From positions 62,001 through 126,000 of the forward strand of contig JANYHT010000016.1 in the NCBI GenBank assembly GCA_025358925.1: DNA of 64,000 nucleotides. Reading direction: 5' to 3'. The notes beneath the pieces are model-generated. The model did no database searches. It saw only the letters and a list, made by a program, of their open reading frames with translations, and was not told where the DNA came from. The stretch comes from Gemmatimonadaceae bacterium (GTDB taxonomy: Bacteria; Gemmatimonadota; Gemmatimonadetes; Gemmatimonadales; Gemmatimonadaceae). Numbering within the stretch: position 1 is the first letter of the stretch; each line of letters starts with the position of its first letter. The position numbers and the translations under genes were made by a program. Below, one piece after another: positions 48,868 through 51,282 of this stretch.

Positions 48868-50504
48868 TCGCGCGGTCTGTGCGACGGATCGCGTCACTCG
48901 CCTTGGTCGCGATCGGTTGGTGCGTGTTGAGCGCGCATGTGGGCACGCAGCAAGTCGTGATTGAAGGCACTGCGGGCGGATATCCGGTGCGCGTGATGAT
49001 CACGCCGCCTGGCGTCGTGCCAGCGCAAGTTGCCATCTTGGTGCGCGTGCTTGATGGAACGCCAACTCGTGTCTCGGTGCGCGCTGCACAATGGAACGTC
49101 GGACTGAAGGGCGCGCCGCCAGCAGAAGACGCTGCGCTTGTGCCGGGAGACCCCGGTGTGTGGTCGCATGATTTGTGGATCATGACGTCCAGCACGTACG
49201 CGGTGTACGTCGCGGTCGAAGGACCGGCCGGGAGTGGTTTGCTCGTTGTCCCTCTACAATCGACCGCGACACGCACGCTTGGCATGACGGGCGGTATGCG
49301 CGCACTGCTCTTGGTGTTGGGCGCACTCCTTGTGACCGGTGTGCTTACCATTGTTGGATCCGCGATCCGCGAAGGATCGTTGGCGCGGGGTGTCGAGCCT
49401 TCTCTCGCGCGTCGTCGTACCGCGCGCATCGCCATGGCCTCCACTGCGGGAGTTCTTGCGCTCGCGCTCTTTGGCGGATCGAAATGGTGGCACGCGGAGG
49501 AGGCTGACTATCGTCGTCGGTTGTATCGACCAATCGCGATCGAGACCACGGTCACAACGATTGATGCTGATCGTATACTCACGATTGCGGTCACGGATTC
49601 GTTGTGGCGCACAAATCGATTTGCACCACTCATGCCGGACCACGGCAAGTTGATGCATCTCTTTCTCATTCGGGCGGACGACAACAACGCGATGGCGCAC
49701 TTGCATCCGTTGCGCATTCAGGCTGACACCTTTGTTACGCGCGTGCCCGCGTTACCGCCGGGCAAGTATTGGTTATTTGGCGACGTCTTGTTTCAGAGCG
49801 GCACGCAGCGCACGCTCGTTGATACGATTGACTTGCCAGTAGCACCCGTCGTGGCGAACGAGACCCACGTTGCGTCGTTAGTTTCACGGGCCGCATCGAA
49901 CGTGGTGCCCGCATTCGATGTGGACGACGCGTGGCGTGTTGTGCAAGCCGCGCCACTCGGCGCCGCATCGATGTTAGCATCGGGCGGCAGTGCGACCCTC
50001 GCGGCGGATGCTCCGATAGTGGTGGGGCGAGATTTGCGGTTGGTTGCGACGCTGCACGATGCGAGTGGCGCGGCGTCAACGTTGGCACCATACATGGGGA
50101 TGGGCGGCCATGCGATGGTGTTGCGCCGCGATGGCGGCGTGTTCATGCATCTGCATCCGATGGGAAGCGCGAGCATGACCGCGCAATCGCAACTGATGCG
50201 ACGTGAGCGCGGCGATACGGCGATGCTTGATTCGGTGGCGATCGCACGTGCGACAAGCGCTGCCGACGCAGCGTCGCCGGTGGGGGCGAGTCATGCGACG
50301 CGCATGGACATCGCATCAACAGTGTCGTTCCCATTCGCCTTCCCAACCAACGGCGCATATCGCGTATTCGTGCAAGTGAAGCGTGGTGGCGTGATCGAAA
50401 CGGCGGCATTTGATGTAACGGTAGGCGCACCTTACGCTAGCGGCGTACGCACATCAGCGAGCACAGCACCGGCCGTTGCGCGGCCACCCGCGCCGAGACC
50501 GTGA
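48864..50504 (+). CDS. membrane-anchored protein with His/Met-rich, possibly copper-binding motifs
   Basis: 546 residues from ATG 48864. Signal-like helix at 6-24 (SLALVAIGWCVLSAHVG), then an extracytoplasmic domain, two helices at about 140-165 and 190-207, and a second external part. That part contains MPDHGKLMHLFLIR and MAHLHPLR at about 255-280 and GMGGHAMVL plus FMHLHPMG at about 410-430. The pattern of H-x-H and M within beta strands recalls FixH/YtkA-like or CopC-like cupredoxin-fold domains. A role in copper binding is inferred, not shown. It is coupled to the preceding membrane gene by ATGA. Its last 73 bases overlap the convergent hom remnant. Confidence 0.72.
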   Translation: MIARSVRRIASLALVAIGWCVLSAHVGTQQVVIEGTAGGYPVRVMITPPGVVPAQVAILVRVLDGTPTRVSVRAAQWNVGLKGAPPAEDAALVPGDPGVWSHDLWIMTSSTYAVYVAVEGPAGSGLLVVPLQSTATRTLGMTGGMRALLLVLGALLVTGVLTIVGSAIREGSLARGVEPSLARRRTARIAMASTAGVLALALFGGSKWWHAEEADYRRRLYRPIAIETTVTTIDADRILTIAVTDSLWRTNRFAPLMPDHGKLMHLFLIRADDNNAMAHLHPLRIQADTFVTRVPALPPGKYWLFGDVLFQSGTQRTLVDTIDLPVAPVVANETHVASLVSRAASNVVPAFDVDDAWRVVQAAPLGAASMLASGGSATLAADAPIVVGRDLRLVATLHDASGAASTLAPYMGMGGHAMVLRRDGGVFMHLHPMGSASMTAQSQLMRRERGDTAMLDSVAIARATSAADAASPVGASHATRMDIASTVSFPFAFPTNGAYRVFVQVKRGGVIETAAFDVTVGAPYASGVRTSASTAPAVARPPAPRP

Positions 50505-50892
50505 AATACCAGCGATCCGGCTGATACGCTGTCGATGACGATGCGGTTGTACGCGCCACTCACCGCGGACCACGCATCGTCCAGCGTAACGCGTGTCGGT
50601 ACGATGCGTGCAACCAGTTGGTTGTCTTCGTGCCCGCACACGGCGATGACCTTTACACGATCTCCTGCCGCAGCAACACGGGCTGACCACGCGGCCGTTT
50701 CGGCGTCGATACCTCGTCGCACAACCTTTAGCGTTGCTGGATTAACACCAAAGGCCAGCCACGCCAATACGCGCAGCTTGTCTTCGGCATCTTCACCAGA
50801 GAGATCACGCCTGGGATCGGCCTCAGCGTAGCCTAGGCGCTGCGCATCGCGAATGGCGTCGGCCAAAGATGTGCCGTCAGCCACGCGCTCCA
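50432..50892 (-). pseudogene. hom: homoserine dehydrogenase remnant, C-terminal part only
   Basis: Reading leftward, about 150 codons match the substrate-binding half of homoserine dehydrogenase: [40 protein letters not shown] (with the catalytic Lys region), and GLGAGGRATAGAVLADV near the end. The NAD-binding N-terminal half is absent. The frame continues to the right only as an out-of-frame reading of the metY fragment, so no start of its own exists. The junction is near 50890. It would be non-functional unless reinitiated. The C-terminus overlaps the convergent gene 48864-50504. Confidence 0.85.
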
Positions 50893-51282
50893 AATGCCGA
50901 GGCGCGGCAACGTATGCGTGAACAGGGAGATGGCGCCGCCGTACAGCGATTGTGAAGCGACGATGTTGTCGCCGGACTCGGCGAGATTGAGAATGGCTAG
51001 CGTCTGCGCTGCTTGCCCACTCGCGACCGCAACGGCGGCGACGCCGCCTTCCAACGCCGCAATACGCTTTTCGAATACGTCGGTGGTCGGGTTGTTGATG
51101 CGTGTATAAATGTTGCCAACGGCACGAAGCGCGAAAAGATCGGCCGCGTGCTCTGGGCTGTCGAACACGAATGCCGAGGTGGCGTAGATCGGTACCGCGC
51201 GCGCGCCGGTGATCGGATCCGCATGCGGCTGCCCTGCGTGCAGCGCGAGGGTATCGACGGACGGCGTGAGTTCGAACGACAT
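50893..51282 (-). pseudogene. metY: O-acetylhomoserine sulfhydrylase remnant, N-terminal part only
   Basis: ATG 51282 with GGAG 8 bases upstream opens a frame of which the first 130 residues match Met[61 protein letters not shown] and [19 protein letters not shown]. MetY is usually about 430 residues and its PLP-binding Lys lies beyond residue 200, so no active enzyme can be made. After PRLGI the frame reads 19 unrelated residues and stops at 50833, because the hom part is in another frame. A SAM-II riboswitch with terminator precedes it, as expected for a methionine gene. Confidence 0.9.

Follow-up and report, generated by a model that had tools for sequence, protein, structure and literature searches.

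The 64,000-nt window analysed here (positions 62001-126000 of contig C43 in G000, a 4.0-Mb draft genome of 72 contigs and 96.2% completeness) carries on its minus strand what is in all likelihood (probability about 0.85) the deletion remnant of a SAM-controlled metY-metX::hom operon, reduced to a pseudogene stub; the leader RNA upstream of it has been kept, most likely for a job that is independent of the operon. As far as the assembled sequences go, comparison demonstrates the in-place deletion relative to related genomes, the out-of-frame join, the intact SAM-II riboswitch sequence and, in the nearest relative (G018), a different loss of greater extent at this position. The features of the locus, in window positions, are as follows.

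48864-50504, plus strand: convergent gene of 546 aa with no Pfam match, which flanks the locus and overlaps the hom tail by 73 bp
50432-50892, minus strand: hom remnant (PF00742), the C-terminal ~152 codons of a metX::hom fusion, with its stop, in a frame other than that of metY
50891-50894, minus strand: deletion junction, with 2528-2769 bp missing relative to the 16 measurable loci that have metY, metX and hom
50893-51282, minus strand: metY remnant, codons 1-130 (partial PF01053 and TIGR01326 matches; relatives)
51323-51358, minus strand: terminator-like hairpin, ATGCGCCCG...CGGGCGCAT, then a T run, between SAM-II and metY, read from the sequence and a putative terminator
51351-51422, minus strand: SAM-II aptamer (RF00521), sequence intact, 44.5 bits (gathering 36)
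51476-51592, minus strand: structured RNA with P1, a pseudoknot, a variable hairpin (P3) and a terminator hairpin, supported by pair counts, no Rfam match
51598-51626, minus strand: promoter-like sequence (TTG at 51626-51624, 17-nt spacer, GATACT at 51603-51598), a putative promoter
51659-52033, minus strand: upstream neighbour, SirB-like protein of 124 aa (PF04247, below cut-off)
52046-53269, minus strand: upstream neighbour purK

The metY frame starts with ATG at 51282 and runs to a stop at 50833, and the hom frame ends at 50432; the two differ, and the reading frame is broken at the join. In profile searches the metY remnant matches positions 1-120 of 381 in PF01053 (E 3.5e-34) and 2-123 of 418 in TIGR01326, and the hom remnant matches positions 34-172 of 173 in PF00742 (E 5.9e-32). 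As these profile matches are partial, neither the portion of MetY with the PLP lysine nor the Hom NAD domain is included in the remnants. The frames and Pfam matches thus bear out the first-pass annotation, which had described metY codons 1-130 joined, in a different frame, to the last ~150 codons of hom, with the PLP lysine and NAD domain missing; comparison with relatives places the junction, put by that annotation near 50890, at 50891-50894. The shared GGCATTTGGAGC-like sequence that it proposed at the join is not seen: similarity to metY stops at CTCGGCATT (50893) and similarity to hom starts at Leu-Glu codons (50892), and measured against the relatives' sequences the two could overlap by one or two T residues at most (50894-50892). 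No breakpoint microhomology is found beyond these residues; a join by microhomology of more than 2 nt is ruled out by the metY and hom sequences of the relatives.

Neither remnant contains an internal stop or frameshift, and the hom remnant is 60-76% identical to its counterparts in the genus. The G000 metY departs at 5 of 83 positions that are invariant in the other rows (0-2 for the 15 other metY rows) and hom at 5 of 65 (0-2 for 20 of the 21 other hom rows); G025, a genome with an intact locus, departs in hom as much as G000 (5/65). Taken as an informal comparison, the open remnants together with the departures at invariant positions suggest that the operon was lost recently in G000.

The locus was compared in G000 and 28 of 29 same-genus relatives (29 loci); G027 (57% complete) was left out, having no match to the RNA or SAM-II and only a distant hom match. 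The relatives have the arrangement SAM-II riboswitch, metY, metX::hom, with the same order, strand and flanks as the scar. All three genes, the intact operon that the first-pass annotation suggested looking for in close relatives, are present at 17 of the 29 loci, among which that of G024 is split over two contigs and that of G015 has a metY without about 27 residues near its start. In most matches from the genus, metX and hom form one open frame of 703-913 aa (e.g., L094:5553-7712); in G005 and G015 each gene has a frame of its own, and in G014 and G016 contig ends cut them. The metX that had been only queried in the postulated operon is therefore real, and a single deletion in such an operon agrees with the comparison. 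Since both parts of the stub belong to one operon with the same upstream neighbours in relatives, their pairing is far beyond chance; a chance neighbourhood of unrelated families is ruled out by the same single operon. A search of the open-access PMC literature found no report of a metX-hom fusion in Gemmatimonas.

Loss at this locus is recurrent. Five loci have kept metX and hom with metY lost or reduced to a fragment (G002, G003, G009, G014, and G016), metX is the sole survivor at three (G010, G011, and G026), hom alone is lost at one (G019), and all three genes are lost at three (G000, G017, and G018; the neighbourhood in G017 is rearranged), so that at least one operon gene, or most of one, is missing from 12 of the 29. 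The breakpoints differ between loci, which indicates several loss events. In G026, metY is a 21-codon stub before metX that ends in the metY tail (L130:8248-8186) and has possibly been kept as a translated leader. The in-place deletion, minimal overlap, open remnants and retained leader of the scar are those of an ordinary deletion pseudogene, from which the case differs in that the operon is lost repeatedly, with different placing, within one genus sample; the scar is confirmed as ordinary gene loss, one of several in the genus.

G018, the nearest relative, is 87.6% identical to the window across 11,618 aligned positions. Some 16 metY codons and, from the hom tail, some 36 bp are retained in it; its loss, at the same place, is larger than that in G000 and has a different breakpoint. 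It supports loss at the locus, judging by the alignment, though not this exact join. What is left of hom in G018 lies within the 50432-50504 overlap, which codes on the opposite strand for the end of the convergent gene.

The sequence of events that best explains these observations would begin with an ancestral SAM-controlled operon, metY then metX::hom, serving the conversion of homoserine to homocysteine. One deletion of ~2.5-2.8 kb, with almost no overlap of its ends, would have taken out metX entirely, along with the remainder of metY and the hom NAD domain, and its product would be the out-of-frame metY-hom stub, a pseudogene. Transcripts would still enter the stub, in keeping with the regulated leader that the first-pass annotation expected to remain (the SAM-II match at 51422-51351), and nothing functional would be made from them; the loss would be recent, and the cell would need methionine.

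That the join is an artefact of assembly and the operon intact in the cell is highly improbable. G000 is a draft, and the join is read from its assembly alone, but it lies well inside a contig of 157,690 bases, and searches of the rest of G000 found no second metX and no full-length metY of the operon type. G018, assembled separately, has no metY, metX or hom between the same flanks, which itself makes an artefact unlikely. Even less credit can be given to the stub as a working new gene, either a hom C-terminal domain or a frameshifted MetY-Hom chimera under SAM-II control. The absence of stops in the hom remnant means that on sequence a product could come from the stub, which counts against the pseudogene reading, and a 308-aa ORF in the hom frame runs through the region with both remnants stop-free; against this, the frames differ, the catalytic and cofactor parts are absent, both remnants are changed at more invariant residues than nearly all other rows, and G018 is without almost all of the stub.

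Deletion of the operon raises the question of what remains for methionine and threonine synthesis. The first-pass annotation had reasoned that the strain would depend on other gene copies or on an external supply, and called for a search of the rest of the genome. For hom that search returned two further genes with the domain, an aspartokinase-homoserine dehydrogenase-like frame on C26 (663 bits; cut-off 726) and a 341-aa Hom on C46 (239 bits; cut-off 373). For MetX, G000 gives only a partial match of 92.8 bits, of a kind seen across the genus; operon MetX scores 250-285 bits in relatives that keep metX and hom, and G018 has one MetX-family paralogue of 151 bits. MetA is found in none of 30 genus genomes (controls positive in 8 of 14). 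The metZ gene is intact in G023 (L138:2462-3649; TIGR01325, 501.7 bits, slightly short of the 510 cut-off) and in G000 is a remnant with stops and frameshifts (C3:159553-159690; L088, about 15450-15880); the contig of G018 ends before the place of metZ. The PF01053 match at C3:159553 was considered as a working second sulfhydrylase and rejected, because only a C-terminal part, broken by stops and frameshifts, is left at the metZ position. Three further genes of the Cys/Met PLP family are intact in frame in G000 (C3, C12, and C43). The methionine synthase gene metH scores over its cut-off in 22 of 30 genomes, G018 among them, and its seeming absence from G000 is explained by contig C59 starting inside the neighbouring gene.

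With a partial MetX match, no MetA found and a broken metZ, no acyl-homoserine route is recognised in G000 (a 96% complete draft). The expected reliance on other copies thus holds for threonine, given two other hom genes, and a need for outside methionine is plausible from gene content but unproven. The converse, that methionine synthesis continues in the strain through an unrecognised pathway, is rather unlikely: the incomplete assembly, the three intact PLP-family genes and the paralogue kept by G018 leave some room for it, against which stand the lack of MetA in 30 of 30 genus genomes, the partial MetX match and the broken metZ.

The 117-nt structured RNA upstream of SAM-II is present in full at 26 of the 29 genus loci and is cut by a contig end at one more (G013); it is not found at the metY-locus position in G011 and G017. 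In the promoter-like sequence before it, positions T5 T6 G7, G28 A29 T30 and T33 are invariant among 26 genus sequences (alignment A1). Across 48 copies of the RNA, pairing holds in 96.6% of cells and 28 of 34 pairs vary on both sides, values reached by none of 500 shuffles (slid versions pair at 34-45%), in an alignment whose fitting to P1, hairpin and terminator favours these three helices. The pseudoknot, to which the alignment was not fitted, joins the P1 loop to the strand before CUAA and is paired in all 48 copies. Two of its five pairs are changed on both sides, in six cells, with GACGG/CCGUC becoming GGUGG/CCACC, GAUGG/CCAUC, GAAGG/CCUUC or GUUGG/CCAAC in four distant copies; it is invariant in the 26 genus rows, so its covariation comes from these few distant copies. 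The single-strand folding z-score of the window copy is -3.3.

No Rfam family accounts for this RNA. The Rfam SAM models give no match at E up to 10 in the stretch of the window that contains it and none on the element in 20 small loci, and assignment to any family of Rfam 15 was rejected on finding only chance-level matches. The RNA resembles SAM-II (RF00521, SAM_alpha; RF01726, with a long loop) in the order of its parts, P1, GAUUU, YUUG, P1', pseudoknot, CUAA; both precede genes of the metY, metX or metK type, and a terminator follows. It differs from SAM-II in its five-pair pseudoknot (GACGG/CCGUC), an inserted hairpin, CUAAG in place of the invariant CUAAA, and the lack of an Rfam match. 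The 28 SAM-II elements of the phylum that were compared all share GAUUU, UUGC, and GCUAAA. Among copies of the RNA, UUG is found in 47 of 48 (alignment A4) and 50 of 51 (A5), as is CUAA in 47/48 and 50/51; GAUUU is found in 32/48 (A4) and 43/51 (A5), and is otherwise GGUUU, AGUUU (the form in the window) or GUUUU. The base after CUAA is G in 67 of 69 distinct copies; it is A in L250 and another base in L199. The element at L250:1981-2095 (minus strand) is a weak match (34 bits) with CUAAA rather than CUAAG, and may be a transitional form linking SAM-II with the new RNA.

A model of either RNA picks up the other, if weakly. An unfiltered search with model R2 of the new RNA over 49 kb surrounding SAM-II loci gave 91 matches; the top three are SAM-II sites, and the matches include the SAM-II site at 15 of 16 loci (E 0.005 to 2.1). 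With the SAM-II model R3, three true SAM-II sites are followed by 16 matches that are the 5' part of the new RNA on the right strand (6-13 bits); the first match elsewhere ranks 20th. The placing of these mutual matches speaks for kinship, with scores that are weak and come in part from P1 and GAUUU.

A comparison with SAM-V suggests where the two RNAs may part in function. As described in the excerpted text of PMC6061858, A50 of SAM-V holds SAM at its amino-acid end, with the U20:A48.U9 triple next to the sulfonium; the new RNA shares with SAM-V, on the same partial text, an H-type pseudoknot, a SAM-II-like core and an extra helix P3. SAM-V is described there as translational, whereas the new RNA has its own terminator hairpin. 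By our own mapping, the G after CUAA would correspond to A50 of SAM-V. The SAM-Chlorobi motif (RF01724) is likewise, in the part of PMC2864571 that treats it, a phylum-restricted structured RNA before metK; it is another family, to which the new RNA has no Rfam match. Two elements in one leader are also found in a known leader with two related SAM-type elements; here, in contrast, SAM-II is the downstream element and the upstream one carries a terminator of its own, with putative SAM binding by both. Because the Rfam models do not match and the invariant A is replaced, the RNA is not filed as SAM-II, and its ligand binding is putative; it is a credible candidate for a new class in the SAM-II superfamily.

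Matches to model R1 occur in 46 of 119 relatives (E up to 0.01), and matches to R2 under strict filters (E up to 0.001) in 58 of 395 genomes and 25 of 138 genera of the phylum. The exact RNA pattern occurs in 38 stretches of the GTDB collection, 35 of them with Gemmatimonadota-type names (one Roseisolibacter included), two from a MAG matching G017 and one labelled Kuenenia and matching G009; an exact pattern misses variants, and the count says nothing firm on other phyla. No report of a riboswitch with metK, or of a SAM-II riboswitch, in Gemmatimonadetes was found in the open-access PMC literature, and the excerpted text of PMC9331176 has none of the latter.

The downstream stretches of 50 copies were searched with six proteins; as these were drawn from such loci, other neighbour families may be missed. 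The gene behind the RNA is metK in 15 copies, where the aligned part begins 15-114 nt past the RNA (in seven metK leaders the start codon is 8-60 nt away), and the metY/metX operon in eight, six of which are genus loci of our own choosing. The remaining neighbours are a 264-aa family (7), a peroxiredoxin (1) and an OsmC protein (1), behind which lies a Cys/Met PLP-type match; 18 copies, that of G018 included, have no assignment. No intact gene follows the RNA in G000 and G018. The 264-aa family, without Pfam or PHROGs match, lies directly behind the RNA at L192:3550-4341 and at L193, L196, L197, L198, L232, and L236. Copies without a metabolic neighbour (L182, L188, L189, L191, L195, L231, L233, L238, L240, L243, and L245) are followed by short ORFs or, in L240, by an SNF2-type helicase that matches a phage family; some of them may be mobile-element copies.

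The fate of the leader in G018 separates its parts. In the RNA, G000 and G018 agree at 116 of 117 positions, compared with 55 of 72 for SAM-II and 40 of 53 for the spacer between them; the RNA also contains the longest stretch without a difference in the whole alignment of the two (115 nt; the next two, 74 and 72). The SAM-II of G018 has CUCC for the CUAA core, scores 27.8 bits with R3 (G000, 72.3; G028, 76.4) and has no Rfam match at E up to 1; the hairpin between SAM-II and metY is largely kept. Near-identity of the RNA beside a dead operon, with SAM-II decayed in G018, points to selection on the RNA where the operon is gone, and hence to a job that is most likely independent of it. Placed right before metK in other genera, the RNA is there most likely a cis-regulatory, terminator-type switch of the SAM-II superfamily. 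In the lineage of G000 and G018 it perhaps acts as a small RNA in trans; a SAM riboswitch RNA reportedly does so in Listeria. The lack of the RNA at the locus in G011 and G017 counts against a general need for it.

A tentative proposal, somewhat short of an even chance, brings these points together: the RNA would be a new riboswitch class of the SAM-II superfamily which, in the lineage of G000 and G018, has persisted beyond its operon and acts without it, probably in trans as a small RNA under ligand control. Its distinguishing marks would be the longer pseudoknot, the inserted hairpin, a terminator of its own and, where the SAM pocket receives the amino-acid end, a different contact base, the last of which perhaps means a changed ligand. 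Two other accounts are less probable. An independent small RNA unrelated to SAM-II, with secondary proximity to metK and met operons, is doubtful; a promoter-like sequence and terminator of its own, the missing Rfam SAM match and the 18 of 50 copies without assigned neighbour fit it, but metK follows 15 of 50, at several loci too closely for a separate promoter (8-60 nt), and the RNA and SAM-II models detect each other at the right places. Slightly more doubtful still is a mere cis leader of the operon that has not yet decayed; its cis-like position before metK in other genera and the recent look of the loss in G000 are as this account would have it, yet in G018 the changed positions number 17 of 72 in SAM-II and 13 of 53 in the spacer, against 1 of 117 in the RNA.

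The decay of this operon serves as a natural experiment, in which one leader element (SAM-II in G018) is lost along with the operon and another stays. With its terminator and altered pocket base, the metK-associated pseudoknotted RNA would allow direct testing of how SAM-II-type pockets change specificity, and also of whether a riboswitch-like RNA can be retained for another role after its genes go. As for the bacteria themselves, the differently placed losses of one operon within a single genus suggest that they often have access to external methionine.
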